Source of the DNA: an uncultured delta proteobacterium | GTDB taxonomy: Bacteria > Desulfobacterota > Desulfovibrionia > Desulfovibrionales > Desulfovibrionaceae | NCBI GenBank assembly: GCA_900079685.1 | Contig: LT599018.1 | Coordinates: forward strand, 186,001-250,000 | Direction of reading: 5' to 3' | DNA: 64,000 bases | Shown: one piece after another, positions 3,064 through 28,200 of the stretch | Position numbering within the stretch: position 1 is the first letter of the stretch | Layout of the letters: each line of letters starts with the position of its first letter | Translations under genes and position numbers: made by a program | Notes under the pieces: generated by a model | Seen by the model: only the letters and a program-made list of their open reading frames with translations | Databases searched by the model: none | What the model was told of the DNA's origin: nothing

Positions 3064-4446
3064 ATGCGTATCCCCAGGCGATACATATTGTTTCTGGCCG
3101 TTCTCGGCATGGTGCCCGCCGCGTTTCTTGCCGGTTGCGACAAGGGGCCGCAGCAGATGCAGATGCCGACGCCCGAGGTCACCTACCTGACGGTGAAAAC
3201 GGAGCGCGTGGAACTCACCTCCGAGCTCAGCGGGCGCACCTCCGCCCTGGAGGTCGCCGAAGTGCGGCCGCAGGTGACGGGCATCATCCAGAAGCGCCTG
3301 TTCGACGAAGGGCAGGAAGTGGCGGAAGGCCAGCAGCTCTACCAGATAGACCCGGCCTTGTATGAAGCCTCCCTTGCCGAGGCCAAGGCGGCTCTTTTGC
3401 GGGCCGAGGCCAACTTTACCGCCGCGCAACTTATGGCGAACCGCTCCGCGCAGGCGGTCAAGGTCAACGCCGTCAGCAGACAGGAAAACGACAACGCCTT
3501 CGCCAGCATGAACCAGGCCCGGGCGGAAGTCGTCGCGGCCAAGGCCGCCGTGGATACCGCCTCCATCAACATCCGCTACACCAAGGTTAACGCCCCCATT
3601 GCCGGGCATATCGGCATTTCCTCGGTGACGCCCGGCGCGCTTGTTACCGCGAACCAGGGCCAGGCGCTTGCGACCATCCAGCGGATGGACCAGATGTACG
3701 TGGACCTGACCCAGTCCAGCGCGGAACTCCTGCGGTTGAAGCGGTCCATGATGGAAGGCCGGCTGGTCTCCGCCGGGGACGGCGCGGCCAAGGTCAAACT
3801 CAAGCTTGAGGACGGCCAGCTCTACGATATCGAAGGCGCGCTCCAGCTCGCGGATATCACCGTTGATACGGGAACCGGCGCCATTACCGTGCGCGCCAAG
3901 TTCGACAACCCCATGCGCGAGATAACCGCGGGCCGGCGGGAACGCCTCCTGTTCCCCGGCATGTTCGTGCGGGCCATTCTGCAGGAAGCGGTCAACGAGC
4001 GGGGGATACTGATCCCGCAGCGGGCCGTCGGGCGCGATACCATGGGCCGCGCGACCGTGTACTGCGTGCGGGAGGTCGAACCCACCAAGGCAGAGATCGA
4101 GGCCGCGCAAAAGGCGGGCAAGACCGCTGAAAAGAGCACCAAGGCCATGGAAGAGGTTATCGAGATCGACCGGAGCATCGGGAAAGATTATCTGGTCCGC
4201 TCGGGCCTGAACGTGGGCGACAAAGTCATTCTCGACGGCAGGGTCAAGGTGCGCCCCGGCGCCGTGGTCAAACCCGTTCCGTATGTGCCGCCCAAGGCGG
4301 CTGACGCGCCCTCCGGCAAAGCGGCTGACGCCTCTTCGGGCAAGGAGGCTGACGCCTCTTCGGGCAAGGAGGCTGACGCCTCTTCGGGCAAGGAGGCTGA
4401 CGCCTCTTCGGCTTCCGGAAGCAACGGCGCCCCGGCCGCGAAATAG
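3064..4446 (+). CDS. RND efflux periplasmic adaptor (AcrA/MexA type lipoprotein)
   Basis: A 460-residue membrane fusion protein that couples an RND pump to an outer-membrane channel. The N terminus is a lipoprotein signal ending in LAGC (Cys25), so it is probably anchored to the inner membrane. The body shows the AcrA-like order: barrel-sandwich start (R-P-Q-V-T-G-I-I), alpha hairpin (about residues 100-165), return lipoyl half (Y-T-x-V-x-A-P-I-x-G) and beta-barrel. GAGGTGAG precedes the ATG. The last 50 residues are unusual: after the membrane-proximal domain comes a run of ADASSGKE repeats and an Ala-rich end not normal for the family. The pump gene follows after 20 bases. Confidence 0.93.
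4297..4410 (+). repeat. 24-bp tandem repeat in the adaptor gene
   Basis: Nearly five in-frame copies of a 24-base unit encode ADASSGKE-type octapeptides at the adaptor C terminus. The first copy is the most diverged (reading ADAPSGKA), the next copies are almost identical, and the last is partial. Identical unit sequence at DNA level suggests recent slippage. Confidence 0.9.
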
Positions 4447-20019: not shown

Positions 20020-20553
20020 ATGCGGATTATCTTGTGCGCGTTTGATGAACCCCTGGAAAACGCCTGGAAAGCGGCTCTCTCCGACTGCCAGGCCGAAGTG
20101 GAACAGGGCGGGCATTCCCTTACCGTGCAGCGCGGCGACATCACAAAACTTCACGTCGCGGCGGTGGTTTCCCCGGCCAACTCGTACGGGTATATGCGCG
20201 GCGGGGTGGATCTGGCCTACACCAAGCGCTTCGGGCCCGGAGTGGAACATGCATTGCGGGCGGCCATCGCAACATTGCCGGAAGGGTATTTGCCCATAGG
20301 GCAGGCGCTGGCCGTTGCCACCGGGGATGCGCGTATTCCGTACCTGGTCAGCGCGCCCACCATGAAAACGCCCCAGCGCCTTAACGGGCCGGAAACGGTT
20401 ATCGCGGCCTCCCGCGCGGCTGTGCGTTGCGCCTTGGAGCAGGGCTATGAGTCCCTGGCGTTTCCGGGCATGGGCACGGGAACGGGCGGCCTGGATACGG
20501 CCGTCGCGGCGAGAGGGATGCTGCAAGGCATTTGCGAGGGGTTGCGGCACTGA
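20020..20553 (+). CDS. Macrodomain protein (ADP-ribose binding)
   Basis: A 177-residue stand-alone macrodomain. The ADP-ribose binding elements are visible: G-D-I-T-K-L (beta strand and Asp), V-V-S-P-A-N-S-Y-G-Y-M-R-G-G-V-D (substrate loop with Asn and GG) and the phosphate loop F-P-G-M-G-T-G-T-G-G-L. Such proteins bind or hydrolyse ADP-ribose, O-acetyl-ADP-ribose or ADP-ribosyl groups on proteins. It begins 11 bases after the ArnT-like gene with AAGGAGAGG as ribosome site, so it is likely co-transcribed, although no functional link to lipid A is known. A strong terminator follows. Confidence 0.9.
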   Translation: MRIILCAFDEPLENAWKAALSDCQAEVEQGGHSLTVQRGDITKLHVAAVVSPANSYGYMRGGVDLAYTKRFGPGVEHALRAAIATLPEGYLPIGQALAVATGDARIPYLVSAPTMKTPQRLNGPETVIAASRAAVRCALEQGYESLAFPGMGTGTGGLDTAVAARGMLQGICEGLRH

Positions 20554-20574
20554 ATGTTACGATACGCAAAAAAA

Positions 20575-20608
20575 GCCTGGCGCATGTACAATGCGCCAGG
20601 CTTTTTTT
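20575..20608. terminator. Bidirectional rho-independent terminator
   Basis: A perfect 11-base stem (20575-20585 with 20591-20601) and a 5-base loop, with seven A bases before and seven T bases after it. It ends both the macrodomain operon and the convergent oxidoreductase gene. Confidence 0.95.
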
Positions 20609-20627
20609 ATTGGTGGAGGATTGGGGG

Positions 20628-22079
20628 CTAGTCTTCCTGGGTCAGCGGCTTGGGCGCGCGGAAGGTTTTCTCCAGCCCGATTCTGGTGGTCTCCACGGCT
20701 TGGTCCAGGCTGGCCCTGGTGTTTACCACGGCCTGGTCAATCCCGGCCCTGGTTGCCCCAACAGCCTGATCGAGGCTGGCCTTGGTGGCTTCCACGGTGT
20801 GGTTGAAGCTGGCTTTGGTCGCTTCCATGGTCTGGTTGAAGCCGGCCCTGGTGGCTTCCATGGTTTTTTCAAGCCCGGCCATGGTGGATTCCACGGCCTG
20901 GTCCAGGGTGACCCTGGTGGCGGCCATGGCGTGGTCAATACCGGCCCTGGTGGCTTCCACCATGCTTTCAAACCCGGCCTTGGCCGTTTCCGCGGTCGTC
21001 TCGAATTCTTTCTGCAGGCCGGTCATGAGTTCGTGCACGGAGATGATGGACGTGACCCTGTACGCGTTGGCGCCGGAAAAGGCGAAGCCGCGATCCAGGT
21101 TGCCCTTCATGGCGTTGAGCAGGGCCGAGGCGATGCAGTAGGGCGACTTTTGCGGGTCGCAGGTGCTGATGCACTGGAAGATGCAGCGGAAGTTCTTTTT
21201 GCCGTCCGCGAGCGCATCCAGGAATTTGCCTTTGATGGCTCTGCCGGGCAGGCCCACCGGGCTTTTGATGATGGTGATGTCCTCTTCGGACGCGTTGACG
21301 TAGCTTTCCTTGAAGCGGATGTCCGCGTCGCACTCGTGGGTGGCCACGAAGCGGGTACCCATCTGCACGCCGGCGGCGCCGAGGTCCATTACTTTCTTGA
21401 TGTCTCCGCCGGTGAACACGCCGCCCGCCGCGATGACCGGGATGCGGCAGCCTTTCTTTTCTTCGAACTCTTTCAGGGCCGCAACCGTTTCCGGAACGGC
21501 ATTTTCAAGCGAATGGGCGGGATCGAAAATATCTTCGGGTTTGAAGCCGAGGTGGCCGCCGGCTTTGGGGCCTTCAACCACGAAGGCGTCCGGCAGCACG
21601 CCATAGCGCTGGAGCCATTTTTTGCAGATCAGGGTGGCGGCGCGGGCGGAGGAAACAATGGGCACGAGCTTGGTGTTGCATTCTTTCTGAAGGCTTTCGC
21701 GGGTTTCCTGGAGATATTTGGGCAGGTCCATGGGGAGCCCCGCGCCCGCGAAAATGACGTCGATGCCTTCTTCAATGGAAGTTTTCACGAGTTGGGAAAA
21801 ATCCGTCAGCACGCACATGATGTTCACGCCGAGAACACCGTCCGTCAGCGAGCGGGCTTTGCGGATTTCGTTCCGCAGGGCGCGGATGTTCGCCTCATGC
21901 GGGTTGACCGCGACATCGGGTTCTTTCATGCCGATCATTGCGGCCGCGATAACGCCGACGCCGCCTTCATTGGCAACGGCGGATGCAAGACGATGCAGCG
22001 ATATGCCGACGCCCATGCCGCCTTGGACAATGGGTTTGCGCACGACGAGATCACCGATTTGCAAAGAGGGAAAAGCCAT
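20628..22079 (-). CDS. FMN-dependent nitronate monooxygenase/FabK-like oxidoreductase with repeat tail
   Basis: A 483-residue protein. Residues 1-355 are a TIM-barrel flavoprotein of the 2-nitropropane dioxygenase / enoyl-ACP reductase II family: P-I-V-Q-G-G-M-G-V-G-I-S near the start, E-G-P-K-A-G-G-H-L-G, V-I-A-A-G-G-V-F-T-G-G and G-A-A-G-V-Q-M-G-T-R-F for FMN binding. A Cys-rich insert (C-I-F-Q-C-I-S-T-C near residue 300) is present. Residues 364-473 are ten 11-residue repeats, followed by a 10-residue charged end; ordinary family members stop near residue 360. GGAGG precedes the start. Reaction is either nitronate oxidation or an NAD(P)H-dependent reduction; sequence does not decide. Confidence 0.9.
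   Translation of the reverse strand: MAFPSLQIGDLVVRKPIVQGGMGVGISLHRLASAVANEGGVGVIAAAMIGMKEPDVAVNPHEANIRALRNEIRKARSLTDGVLGVNIMCVLTDFSQLVKTSIEEGIDVIFAGAGLPMDLPKYLQETRESLQKECNTKLVPIVSSARAATLICKKWLQRYGVLPDAFVVEGPKAGGHLGFKPEDIFDPAHSLENAVPETVAALKEFEEKKGCRIPVIAAGGVFTGGDIKKVMDLGAAGVQMGTRFVATHECDADIRFKESYVNASEEDITIIKSPVGLPGRAIKGKFLDALADGKKNFRCIFQCISTCDPQKSPYCIASALLNAMKGNLDRGFAFSGANAYRVTSIISVHELMTGLQKEFETTAETAKAGFESMVEATRAGIDHAMAATRVTLDQAVESTMAGLEKTMEATRAGFNQTMEATKASFNHTVEATKASLDQAVGATRAGIDQAVVNTRASLDQAVETTRIGLEKTFRAPKPLTQED
20661..20990 (-). repeat. Ten tandem 33-bp units encoding 11-residue repeats
   Basis: The units have the protein consensus EATRAGLDQAV, with variation at most positions but strict 11-residue spacing and no gaps. 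The hydrophobic residues at positions 6-7 and 11 suggest a long amphipathic helix or coiled coil of hendecad type. It occupies codons 364-473 of the flavin oxidoreductase gene. Confidence 0.92.
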
Positions 22080-22136
22080 GGAGCCTCCAGAAGAAAAAAG
22101 AGAAAAAAACCGCGAGGATAAGAGTTAAATCCTCTA

Positions 22137-25100
22137 TCACCGCGCTATAATACACAGGTTTTTATATAAACACCAGTCGCAATTTTGACCAGACCTGGGG
22201 GGAAAGTTTTCCGCGTTTGCCATGTGCCGCAAGAGAAACCGGAAAAGCGCGGGGATGCGTTCCGTAATCGCCCGCTCCCGGACATCCTCCGCCGTTTTTT
22301 CGCCGAAGAGGGGGGTATCCTTGGCGCCCATCCGCAACGGGACATAGGCGGCGTCGCGCACGGCCCGGCCCGTCTGCCGGCCTGCCATGTAAATATAGGC
22401 GGGCAGTTGCACGCTGGCGAAGGCCTTGGCAACGGCGGCAAGCGGGTCACCAGAGCCGCCAGTCCCGCCGGAGCCGCCGGAATACTCGCCGGACCCGCCG
22501 GGCCGCCATGCTTCCAGCGCGTCCCAGAAGGCGTCGTCCTGCCAGACGGCATGTTTGACCAGGGGCACGTGGCCTGTTTTGTAGTCCAGCACCAGCAATT
22601 GCCCGGCCTCTTCGTCCACCCTGTCGATAACGCCGCCAAGGGTACGTTCTTTTCCGTCCACAATGACGGCCGCCCGGAATTTTTCCTCGACGTGGCGCGG
22701 GATGCGGCCCGCGTGGTTTTCCAGGAGGGTCCGCAGAATGGGGGGCACGGCCTCTTCCAGCATGATACGGTCATCCGCCGGGAGGGTGCGGGATAATTCG
22801 CTCTCCGCGAACTGCCGCGAGAACGCATCGCACAGGGCGGCTGCGGCGGCTGCATCCGCCGTGAGGGGCTTGTCCAGCCGGTCCGTGAAATACCCGCGCA
22901 GCACCTCGTGCAAAAAAGTGCCGGTGCCGAGCGGGTCGCGGCCTTCCACCACGCCTTCCACCTCGCGGATGCGGCCGACGCGCTGGTAAAAAAACTGCGC
23001 GGGGCAGCGAAGATAGGCATCGAGCAGCGAAGGGGACAGGTCGCCTTCCAGGATGGTTTGCATGCGGCGCATTGCCGCGTCTTTGGCGGGAATGGTCCTG
23101 TGTTCGCGGGGCACGGCGGGGAGACGGCAGGAAATGAGGCTCAAGGGGCCGTCGCAGCCCGCTTTTTCAGGGTGTTCCGGGGTCAGGATGCGGCCGAGTT
23201 TTTCCTCCTCTTTCCAGAGGAGTTCCTCCACAAACCGGCTGCGCGTCTTTTTCGCGTCGTTCAGGCCCTGGGCGGTCACGCCTTCCTGCCAGTAGAGGGT
23301 GACCTGCCGCGCGCCGTTGACGAGGCGGAAAAAGTTATACGCCGCCACCTTTTCCCGCCCCCGCTTGCCGGGCAGGCCGGTGAGTCCCCGGAGGGAATCG
23401 GGCAGGAGCGGGTCATGTCCGCTCGTTCCGGGCAGTTTGTCTTCCGTGAGGTCAAGGATGAAAAGGCGGTCAAAATGCAAAAGCCGCGTTTCCAGAACAC
23501 CCAGGATCTGGTCACCCACGAGGGGGTAAGCTTCAAACGGCACGCGTTCTTGGGCCAGCAGGTTCCGCAGGACGGCGAACAGGGTTTCCGGGGGGAGATG
23601 TTCCTCTTTCAGGGCGGTATGGGCCAGTTGGGGTATGACGGAGACGCTCAGCCGGTAGAGACACTCCGCGTCTATCGGGAAATGGTCCCACAGGGCCGCG
23701 CCGTGGTCGCGCATGAGGTCGACAAGCCCTTGCAGCGCCGTCGCCAGATCGCCCGGTGTTGCAATGCTCTCCCAGCGGAAGACGGCGGCGTCCAGGATGC
23801 GGGAGAATAACGCTAATGATGGGGCCAAAGACTGGGCTGACAGGGCGGTTGCCGCCTCTTCCGGTCCGGTTCCCGCGCCGTCGGTGACGGTCGCGGCGGT
23901 GCGCGCCGCCAGGTCCCTCAGCGGCGCGAACCGCCGGGAAGCGCGCACCACGCGCTCCGCATGGTGCAGAAACCGCCGGAAATTGTGGCCGGACGGATTC
24001 CGTCGGCCTTTTCCCTGATCCGGCGTTTGGTCCGGGGCGGGGGACGGGTCGAGCATCTTGAGGTACGGGTGCCGGAGCAGCGCGATAAGGGCCTTCCAGT
24101 GGTAGCCGCTGCCGCGTTTTGTCTCCTGCATGGCCAGGATGCATTCCACCAGCCGGAACAGCGGCGAGCGGGCCAGGGGGTAGCCCATGGAGATGTTGCG
24201 GTCCGCGTCCGGCAGATGGTGCAGCACGGGCATGAGGAGGCTGGTGTCCGGCAGGACCACCGCGCGGGATTCCCCTGCGGGCCGGGCCGCGCCCTCGAAC
24301 GTATGGGAATTATGCGGATTATGCCCAAGGGCGCGCAGTTCTTCCGCTAACGCGCTGATCTGCGAATGCACGTCGTACCCGGCCCGGAAGGTGATGACCG
24401 GTTCGCCCGGCTTGCGGGGCGCGCCGTGAGCGGCATCCGGCTCCGATCCGGGCGCGGCGGTAAAGGGGGTGATCGTCGTTTGCCACGCCCCGGCCCAGCG
24501 GATGAGGTCCGTGCAGCTCCAGTGCGGCTCGGCGGAACCGCCGGGCACGATGTTCGGGTCGGCATGCAGGCAGACGGCGGCGCCGTGCCGCTCCCAGAGG
24601 GTGCGGAACAGCACCTGCTGCGAGCCGGTCAGGGTGTGGAACCCGGCCAGGATGATCTGTTTTCCGGCCATGCCCGGAATGCGGGAAAGGTCTTCGCCCC
24701 GTGCGATGATCCGGACGACCGAGGCCGCGTCAAATCCCGGCGTTGTCCAGCCGCGTTCCCGCAGGGCTGCGACGTACCGCGCATGGATGGTGCCCAGGTT
24801 TTCCAGGAGGGCCGCCGCGAAGGGCGTTACCTGGTCTTCCATGTGAATGTAGTCGTCGGGTTCCCGGTTGTGGGTGAAAAACTCCTCCATCAGGTTGGCA
24901 AGCCGCACGCCCCAGGGGAAGAACCGCTTCGAGTCGTCAAGGGGCAGGTCGCGGAGCAGCCCGCCGTGCGTGTCCCGCAGGTCCCGCACGATGTGCAGGA
25001 GCAAGGCCACCTGGTCGAGAATGCCCACGGGGACGGCCCCGGTTGCGGCGTCCTGCCGCGCGGCCGCGCGGATAAGGCCGAACAGGCCGGACACGGACTC

Positions 25101-25298
25101 CATGCGCGGCAGGACGCAGGGCTTGGGGATGCGTTCGTCGTTTCTGATGGTTTCCGTCAGGTACAGGGCGGGCCGGCTGTGCGGGAACACGCAGAACGCG
25201 CGGCCCATGTCGCCGTCCGTCAGGTCCAGGGCGATGTCGATGAGCGCCGGAAGGAACGGGCGGTTCCAGGCGACGTTGATGAACGGGCGCGGGCTCAC
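22137..25298 (-). CDS. addB: AddB-like helicase-nuclease subunit with iron-sulfur staple
   Basis: A 1053-residue partner of the adjacent UvrD-like protein. The N-terminal helicase-like region lacks a recognisable Walker A site. The C-terminal PD-(D/E)XK nuclease domain begins with S-L-L-D-A-Y-L-R-C-P-A-Q-F-F-Y-Q and has the catalytic L-L-V-L-D-Y-K-T-G segment. The last residues read C-D-W-C-L-Y-K-N-L-C; with the earlier Cys in Y-L-R-C these four make the 4Fe-4S staple known from AddB. The GTG start at 25298 overlaps the previous gene by four bases (GTGA) and has GGAGG seven bases upstream. The pair repairs DNA breaks by end resection for RecA. Confidence 0.87.
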   Translation of the reverse strand: MSPRPFINVAWNRPFLPALIDIALDLTDGDMGRAFCVFPHSRPALYLTETIRNDERIPKPCVLPRMESVSGLFGLIRAAARQDAATGAVPVGILDQVALLLHIVRDLRDTHGGLLRDLPLDDSKRFFPWGVRLANLMEEFFTHNREPDDYIHMEDQVTPFAAALLENLGTIHARYVAALRERGWTTPGFDAASVVRIIARGEDLSRIPGMAGKQIILAGFHTLTGSQQVLFRTLWERHGAAVCLHADPNIVPGGSAEPHWSCTDLIRWAGAWQTTITPFTAAPGSEPDAAHGAPRKPGEPVITFRAGYDVHSQISALAEELRALGHNPHNSHTFEGAARPAGESRAVVLPDTSLLMPVLHHLPDADRNISMGYPLARSPLFRLVECILAMQETKRGSGYHWKALIALLRHPYLKMLDPSPAPDQTPDQGKGRRNPSGHNFRRFLHHAERVVRASRRFAPLRDLAARTAATVTDGAGTGPEEAATALSAQSLAPSLALFSRILDAAVFRWESIATPGDLATALQGLVDLMRDHGAALWDHFPIDAECLYRLSVSVIPQLAHTALKEEHLPPETLFAVLRNLLAQERVPFEAYPLVGDQILGVLETRLLHFDRLFILDLTEDKLPGTSGHDPLLPDSLRGLTGLPGKRGREKVAAYNFFRLVNGARQVTLYWQEGVTAQGLNDAKKTRSRFVEELLWKEEEKLGRILTPEHPEKAGCDGPLSLISCRLPAVPREHRTIPAKDAAMRRMQTILEGDLSPSLLDAYLRCPAQFFYQRVGRIREVEGVVEGRDPLGTGTFLHEVLRGYFTDRLDKPLTADAAAAAALCDAFSRQFAESELSRTLPADDRIMLEEAVPPILRTLLENHAGRIPRHVEEKFRAAVIVDGKERTLGGVIDRVDEEAGQLLVLDYKTGHVPLVKHAVWQDDAFWDALEAWRPGGSGEYSGGSGGTGGSGDPLAAVAKAFASVQLPAYIYMAGRQTGRAVRDAAYVPLRMGAKDTPLFGEKTAEDVRERAITERIPALFRFLLRHMANAENFPPRSGQNCDWCLYKNLCIIAR

Positions 25299-28200
25299 GG
25301 CCTGTCCTCCTGTCCGGGAACGGGAGGACAGGCGACGGGGATGCATTCCCGCCGGTCAAGGTACACGACGATGCCGGTCGTTTCCCGCTCCGGCTCTCTG
25401 CGGCGCACGGATCGGGACAGCAGGGAAAGGTAGCGTTCCACCTGGAGGATGTGGTCCGGGGACGGGCGGCCCGTCTTGTACTCCACGGCCAGCAGCGGCG
25501 CGTCAGGCGCGTCCACCAGGAGATCGACCCGGCGGATGGAGCCGTCCGCGTCCATCAGGGGTTGCTCCGGGCTGCCGTGGCGCATCCAGGTTGCGGTTTC
25601 CGGCAGGGAGCCGTACCAGGCCAGCATGTCCGCCATTGCGCGGCGCACGCCGTCCGGATCGGGCATGGGGATGGGGAAGGCCCGGAGGCCCTGGTCCACG
25701 GCCCGCGCCACGTCCGCCGCCAAATCGCCCGTCAAGCGCAGGGACTCAAGGCAGGCATGGGCCAGGAGCCCGCGCTGCCGCTCGGAAAAACCCTTTTCCC
25801 CCATGGGGTTGCGGAAAATTTTGAGCCGGGGCAGCCAGGCCATCAGGGGCAGGCCGGTTTCCTGGGCGAGGGGTGCCGGTTCCACCGGCGTTTCCGCCGG
25901 AATTTCCGCAATGGGGCAGGGGGCCGGGCTCCCCCCCGCAAGCAGGGGAGGGAGCGGCAATTTGCCGTAAGTGAATTCGCCGTGCGTGAAAGGGGTGGTT
26001 TCCAGCAGCGTTTCCAGGGCCTTGCCCAGGGATGAGCGCGAGGCGCTGTGCCCGCTCTGGGTGATGAAACCGTACAGCTCCTCCGTCGGCCTGGTCCAGG
26101 CGACGTACAGGAGGTTGATCTGCTCCACGATGCCCCGGATGGATTCCGCCGCGCTGTTTTCCCGGTAGGTGACGAGCGGCGTGCCGGAAGACGCGTCGAT
26201 CGCCAGCGGTTTGTACGGCGGGTCCGCCTGATGGTGGAAGGGCACGACCACCACGGGAAATTCCAGCCCCTTGGCTTTGTGCATGCTCAAGATACGCACG
26301 GCGTCCATGTTTTCGGGCATGGGCACGCGCTCGTCCATGCCGGACTCCGCCCAGTACTCGAGAAAGGCGGAAAGGGAGGAAAATCCCTTGCTTTCCGCCG
26401 CGTACGCCACTTCCGAAAAGCGTTGCAGGAACGGGGCCTGCTCCGGAAAACGCTCGAACAGGCGGCAGTGCCGGATCAGTTCGCGCACCATGTCATAGGC
26501 GCTCAACAGCCCGGTCTGGTCGTGGAACGGCGCCAAGGTCCGCTGCCAGGCCTCGGGAAACGCCGCGCGGAACGCCGCGTACAGCGGCGGCGCGGCGGGG
26601 AGTTCCCTGGCGGCGGCAAGCCAGTCCGTAAGGGTCGCAAAGCCGGGCATCCTGTCGCCGAACAATTCCGGGGAACCTGCCGCGCTCCAGAAGGCGGTGT
26701 CGTCCATGGGGTATTCCAGGAAGGCCAGGGTATCCACGAGCCGGGTCACGAGCGGGTGGCTTCCCAGGCGGAAACTGTGCTCCGTGGCCACGGGAATCCG
26801 CCATTCCGCCAGCCAGTCGGAAACGAGCCCGGCCTCCCTGTTCGTGCGGACGAGCACGGCCACTTCCCCGGGGTTCCGCCGGGAGAGTATCCCGTCTTGC
26901 AGCCCGCCTTGCAAAAGGACACGCAGGGCTTCCTTGACCGCGTCCATCAGGTCCGCCGTGTACTTGGCCTCTATCCGGGTGAGGCGCACGTAGCCTTCTT
27001 TGCTTCTGTTTTTCTCCGGCACGTCCTGGCGGCACCCGGCGAAGGAGGCGGCAAGGGAGCGGGCCGCGTCCGCGAACACGCCGGGCTCGGTGGCGGCGGG
27101 CAGCATGGCCTCAAGGATGCGCCCGACAAAGGCCGCGTCCGCCAGCTGGCCGAAAATGCGGTTGTTGGTATGCACGATGGCCGGGGCGCTTCGCCAGTTG
27201 CAGTCGAGTGTTGTCGTGCGGGGCGGTTCCGGCAGCATGGCCGTAAGGTTTTCATCCAGAGCCACGGCGTTGAAGAGCTCCGCGTTGCCCCCGCGCCAGC
27301 CGTAAATGGCTTGTTTCACGTCCCCGACATACGTCAGGGTCCCCCCGCGCGCGAGGCATTCCTCAACCAGGGGGATGATGGCCCGCCACTGGTCCGTGCT
27401 GGTATCCTGGAACTCGTCGAACAGCAGGTGGACCAGCGTATCCCCCAGGCGGCAGAACGCGTCGGATACCCCGTTGCCCGATTCCAGGGATTCCCGCGCG
27501 AGCGAGGGTAACCGGGAGGCGGGCACGCTGCCCGATTCGCGCTGCACGGTTTCCAGGCCTTCGAGCAGCGGCATTGCCAGGGCCACGAGCGGCATGTATT
27601 CGCGGGTGGTGACGAGCGGCGGGCCGTAGGCCTTCAATCTGCCGTAGGCGGCAAGGAGGTCGCGGAAGGCGGCGGCCGCGTCGGCGGAGGCCTTGCCTTT
27701 GGAAGCCTTGTTCAGCCACTCGTCAAAATCCGCCTTTTGGGCGAAGGAATCCGCGAAGTCCGGCACGGTCATGGCCGGACATTCCTGGCATTTTTGAAGA
27801 AATTTCAGAGCGTTGGCGTTGAGGGAGAGATTCTCGTCATCGACCATGGTTCCCAGGGCGGCGGCGGCGTCATGCATGGCCGCGCACAGGGAGGCCAGCA
27901 TGGCGGCGGCCTTTTTGCCGTCTTCCTCGCTCGGCAAAGGGGAACCGTTCAAATGCAGGTCGATGAGTTCCCGGAGGCGCTTGCGCAGAATGTCGCCCGC
28001 GGCCACGCCCTTGGCGCGGTGGTGGAAGAGGAGCGAGCGGCAGGCGCCCCGCAGAAGGTTCGCCACGTATCCTTCCGGTTCCTGGTCCGCCTGGTCGAGC
28101 AGGGCGTCGTACAGGGGGAGCAGGGCCTCGTCCAGCGTGAAGAGGGGGGCGAAATCCGGCGGCAGGGAGAGAGAGAGGGCGTTGAGCCGCACGAGCAGGT

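Follow-up and report, generated by a model that had tools for sequence, protein, structure and literature searches.

The uncultured delta proteobacterium studied here encodes a predicted FabX-like flavoenzyme whose C-terminus is a run of ten gap-free 11-residue repeats, likely folded as one long amphipathic helix. Our best reading, to which we assign a probability of about one half, is that this tandem-duplicated helix would associate with itself as a hendecad coiled coil and turn the enzyme into a stalked oligomer. Judged from its conserved core, the protein is a candidate acyl-ACP dehydrogenase/isomerase that probably puts double bonds into the membrane fatty acids of this sulfate reducer. 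The gene occupies positions 20628-22079, minus strand, of the window (the whole 64,000-nucleotide stretch of DNA that was analysed) and encodes 483 residues in a single open frame.

The repeat is far beyond what chance would produce. The ten units (consensus EATRAGLDQAV) span residues 364-473, corresponding to window 20661-20990 on the minus strand, as defined by repeat finding, self-match and unit alignment; an earlier sequence-only reading had their number and coordinates exactly right. Self-match of the tail at a lag of 11 residues is 42% compared with 8.7% in shuffles (z 13.4) and is also high at lags 22 and 33 (z 9.4 and 9.5), while mean pairwise identity of units, computed for nine of the ten, is 0.46 versus 0.07 for shuffled units. 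The DNA of the tail has periods of 33 and 99 nt, the former found by TRF and by a second repeat finder. Position 3 of the unit is Thr in nine of ten cases, and positions 7 and 11 hold a large hydrophobic residue in every unit. A non-repeat, low-confidence end (RAPKPLTQED) and the stop codon complete the gene at 20628..20660, minus strand (ORF, AlphaFold2). A frameshift or gene-fusion artefact is ruled out by the single open frame, the conserved synteny with a nuclease gene in relatives and the presence of the tail in a sister species. The genome contains no second copy of the tail that we could find, ruling out its acquisition from another gene of the same genome. Elsewhere in the window, at 4293-4411, a 24-nt unit (CAAGGAGGCTGACGCCTCTTCGGG) occurs in five copies that are 92% alike. 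The strand opposite the enzyme gene carries a 529-codon open frame (window 20532-22121, plus strand), which is probably no gene but a consequence of GC-rich codon usage.

Residues 1-347 (21039..22079, minus strand) form the complete TIM-barrel flavoenzyme that had been proposed to precede the tail, but the original nitronate monooxygenase/FabK-like label gives way to a FabX-like one. FabX of Helicobacter pylori (PDB 7e1q, 9lt5) is a decanoyl-ACP dehydrogenase/isomerase of unsaturated fatty acid synthesis that contains FMN, the residue His182 and a [4Fe-4S] subdomain anchored by C300, C304, C308 and C320 (PMC8626469). We classify the core as FabX-like because the His, the four cysteines and the FMN contacts are kept and because FabX is its best match in both sequence and fold. 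The catalytic His is His176 (21552..21554, minus strand; invariant in a 35-row alignment), the cluster cysteines are C299, C303, C307 and C315 (21135..21185, minus strand), and FabX N99, E175, Q240 and T243 correspond to N86, E169, Q239 and T242. Comparison by phmmer gives 1e-77 against H. pylori FabX chains and 2e-28 against FabK, and Foldseek ranks FabX 9lt5 first (1.1e-34) with the FabK/nitronate monooxygenase side at 8e-22. Pfam assigns the core to nitronate monooxygenase (NMO, 4e-58), and the FabK equivalog model TIGR03151 scores 143.5 bits, far under its 453.1-bit cut-off. FabK and nitronate monooxygenase share the fold family of this core but do not possess the C-terminal four-Cys iron-sulfur subdomain that it has in common with FabX. 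Of 203 homologous cores, 202 contain the motif C-x3-C-x3-C-x5-16-C, and the remaining one is a sequence cut by a contig end. The Ser that holds the His in FabX, S273, is kept as S273; among the ACP-contact residues R164 is kept (R158 here), whereas T130 is replaced by Met (M117 here). Two further differences separate the proteins: H. pylori FabX ends at residue 363 without a tail, and it uses oxygen whereas the family here is anaerobic.

The tail is predicted to be a single helix. AlphaFold2, supplied with the 35-row alignment, models residues 348-472 (20664..21038, minus strand) as one unbroken helix that continues the last helix of the core, with pLDDT by block dropping from 96 to 63; the tail alone, modelled without an alignment, gives one helix over residues 2-120 of the fragment at a mean pLDDT of 93. 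At 1.5 Å per residue, 125 residues of helix would extend for about 19 nm. The hydrophobic moment is greatest at 98.0 degrees per residue, equal to 3.67 residues per turn and the hendecad value, and hydrophobic residues follow the 4-4-3 spacing of a hendecad period within the one predicted helix. They form a stripe at positions 3, 7 and 11, with small residues beside it at 6 and 10; the centre of this face comprises Thr3, Leu/Phe/Ile7, Ala/Thr10 and Val/Met11, with Arg/Lys4, Asp/Glu8 and Glu1 to its side and opposite. Over the ten units (110 residues) the net charge is -4, no unit is positive and the moment is 0.28. The best weak Pfam match of the tail is the Apolipoprotein A1/A4/E domain (PF01442; 3e-9, 37.3 bits where the cut-off is 90), and among solved structures only chance-level resemblances were found. 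The hendecad tail first read from the DNA is therefore real, and because it is predicted to be a long amphipathic helix, oligomerisation and tethering are both sensible candidate roles.

Long helical tails have been gained separately at least six times among 202 cores. On a maximum-likelihood tree of these cores, in which some supports are weak, the long-tail state needs at least six changes, and this scatter, together with the mostly differing tail sequences, rules out a single long-tailed ancestor. The survey covered the tails of about 200 distinct homologues, a sample enriched for long open frames, and most end 10-35 residues past the core (median tail 20, 90th percentile 35); tails of at least 45 residues occur in 11 of 203 homologues. 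Homologue open frames of up to 971 residues do not represent long tails, as the excess is upstream read-through. The tail of this genome measures 131 residues, those of three genomes of one genus 106-122 residues in 18-residue units, and single homologues carry 84 residues of mixed 7/11 units and 98 residues of a less regular repeat; five more have tails of 46-51 residues with short hendecad runs. In another family of the phylum, the 112-residue tail of L258 repeats the native terminal motif S-L-x-x-E-Y. In L258 (112) and L041 (98), from two different families, the tail is built by repeating the native terminal motif SLxxEYxxA, and the two tails are mutually similar, perhaps through shared origin or transfer. 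Nine long tails with a computed period, the partial sister-species tail included, peak at 97.5-99.5 degrees, and the net charge of the other long tails ranges from -5 to +4.

The sister species, represented by L052, the one further genome of the genus, has four complete units of the same kind and the end of another in a tail fragment at a contig edge, the core gene being absent from that assembly. Outside the genus, the closest relative (G011, 76% identity) ends in a 20-residue tail, ESLQAEFDTALASTKAAFAR, which resembles a seed of the repeat. Tailless homologues throughout related genomes had been put forward as evidence against a role for the tail; most homologues do lack it, but the sister species has it and other lineages have grown their own.

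The hydrophobic stripe is retained and the tail is not decaying. Codon-level decay of the repeat in this lineage, the other observation named in advance as counting against a role, was not seen: dN/dS is 0.62 among units and 0.54 between the two species. Of the 14 units observed, 13 have Thr at position 3, and all have a large hydrophobic residue at both position 7 and position 11. Neutral simulations, started from the consensus, run to the observed divergence, assuming a star tree and ignoring repeat homogenisation, kept positions 3, 7 and 11 this well in 0 of 2000 runs.

Similar repeats are found in one other kind of protein. The sequence-only reading had suggested looking for the same tail on other proteins, and in 348 genomes of the order the only matches are membrane-anchored CCDC90-like coiled-coil proteins (PF07798), ruling out that the tail is widespread on other proteins there. 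Their unit, T-R-A-D-L-E-K-S-I-x-E, is closely similar to that of the tail. Two examples (L118:1408-1719 and L234:1051-2025) contain long hendecad runs (TRADLEKSIQE / VRADLSKDIEQ) that differ greatly in repeat number. These proteins stand alone as stalks and carry a membrane helix at the C-terminus, whereas the tail here follows an enzyme and has no membrane segment.

The main rival to self-association, and one we regard as rather unlikely, holds that the tail resembles synuclein, perilipin and apolipoprotein in being a lipid-surface helix, which would lie along the inner membrane and keep the enzyme near acyltransferases. The tail shares gap-free 11-mers, a 33-residue higher order and weak amphipathicity with perilipin 4 and alpha-synuclein (PMC5889406), and its moment falls between those of Plin4 (0.257) and synuclein (0.30) (PMC5889406 table). 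Its face is rich in Thr, Ala, Gly and Val, the weak apolipoprotein match points the same way, and the presumed product of the enzyme is destined for membrane lipids. In Plin4, binding requires more than 66 residues of helix, and lipid droplets were no longer bound once the charge per 33-mer had been changed from +1 to -1 (PMC5889406). Against the lipid reading, the tail is net negative without a single positive unit, has fixed positions for larger hydrophobics (L, I, F, M, V), and belongs to a set of long tails that lack a shared basic character; perilipin 4 and alpha-synuclein bind lipid, whereas the present tail is known from sequence and a predicted helix. Attachment to a storage granule or membrane is not favoured, given the net negative charge. 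Alternatively, the tail could be a passive by-product of short-repeat slippage that lengthens a tolerant, solvent-exposed helix whose only function is to stay soluble. We find this doubtful: the stripe and Thr3 are kept beyond neutral expectation (although selection against misfolding could do likewise), the repeated gains share a helical period and the sister species conserves the tail, whereas most homologues manage without one, length and sequence vary freely across lineages and dN/dS among units is only moderately low. Long helices are common docking surfaces, and the tail might bind a protein other than itself, such as ACP, a condensing enzyme or the non-oxygen electron acceptor that FabX of an anaerobe would need. 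Tail sequences are unrelated across lineages, which makes one conserved partner unlikely and the docking proposal very improbable.

We favour self-association because the only matching proteins of the order are CCDC90-like stalks and because the charge of the tail is negative, which speaks against an anionic lipid surface as its partner. A stripe of this kind on a solitary 125-residue helix should be expected to be buried. The native last helix would have been lengthened in this genus as a 33-nt unit was duplicated in frame, with steps of 99 nt adding a higher order to the growth, to yield a single straight amphipathic helix some 125 residues long. Its stripe would then be buried against the same helix of other enzyme copies in a straight or right-handed hendecad coiled coil, and the paired tails would make the enzyme a stalked oligomer. 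The helix that is unbroken with and without the core, the 98.0-degree peak, the similar periods of the independent gains and the pattern kept both in the sister species and beyond the neutral simulation are all consistent with a coiled coil. Counting against it, an invariant Thr and many Ala and Gly, as on this face, are less often seen in strong coiled-coil cores, and the apolipoprotein repeat is the best weak Pfam match, a model that CCDC90-like coiled coils match too. H. pylori FabX crystallised with one monomer per asymmetric unit (PMC8626469), so there is no known need for oligomers. We infer the coiled-coil state, as we do any benefit that oligomers may bring. The separate gains of tails suggest a useful role, which may be to hold copies of the enzyme together.

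The gene neighbourhood is conserved. A PD-(D/E)XK nuclease gene (AddB/RecB-like; Pfam PF12705) lies upstream of the enzyme gene at 22137..25346 on the minus strand and likewise adjoins the FabX-like gene in the four relatives checked; the enzyme gene is therefore vertically inherited. On the other side, a repeat search found a perfect inverted repeat of 18 bp (20568..20608) containing A and T runs, likely a terminator common to the two convergent genes; it does not appear in the output of a simple terminator scan.

The anaerobes of this family probably obtain their unsaturated fatty acids through FabX, because FabA above cut-off is found in 0 of 288 genomes of the Desulfovibrionaceae-type family, a family search finds a FabX-like core in 256 of the 288, and the double bonds of D. 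alaskensis are suitably placed. Double bonds at carbons 9 and 11 are expected when they are set at the ten-carbon stage, and these are the positions in the C16:1 and C18:1 fatty acids of that species (PMC4916218). The present genome encodes FabZ and a weak ApeP-like dehydratase, with no FabA-class match above cut-off and no fatty acid desaturase. Among the papers searched, none links Desulfovibrio with FabX. In these sulfate reducers without FabA the electron acceptor must differ from that of H. pylori, because oxygen is absent as an acceptor in these anaerobes.

A broader and distinctly tentative idea, which we think improbable as it stands, is that growth of the FabX tail is a repeated adaptation in which stalked oligomers or surface arrays would tune membrane lipid synthesis in several Desulfovibrionaceae lineages. 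As a housekeeping lipid enzyme that has gained repeat tails several separate times, FabX offers a natural experiment in how repeat growth of a terminal helix may give rise to a new assembly domain.
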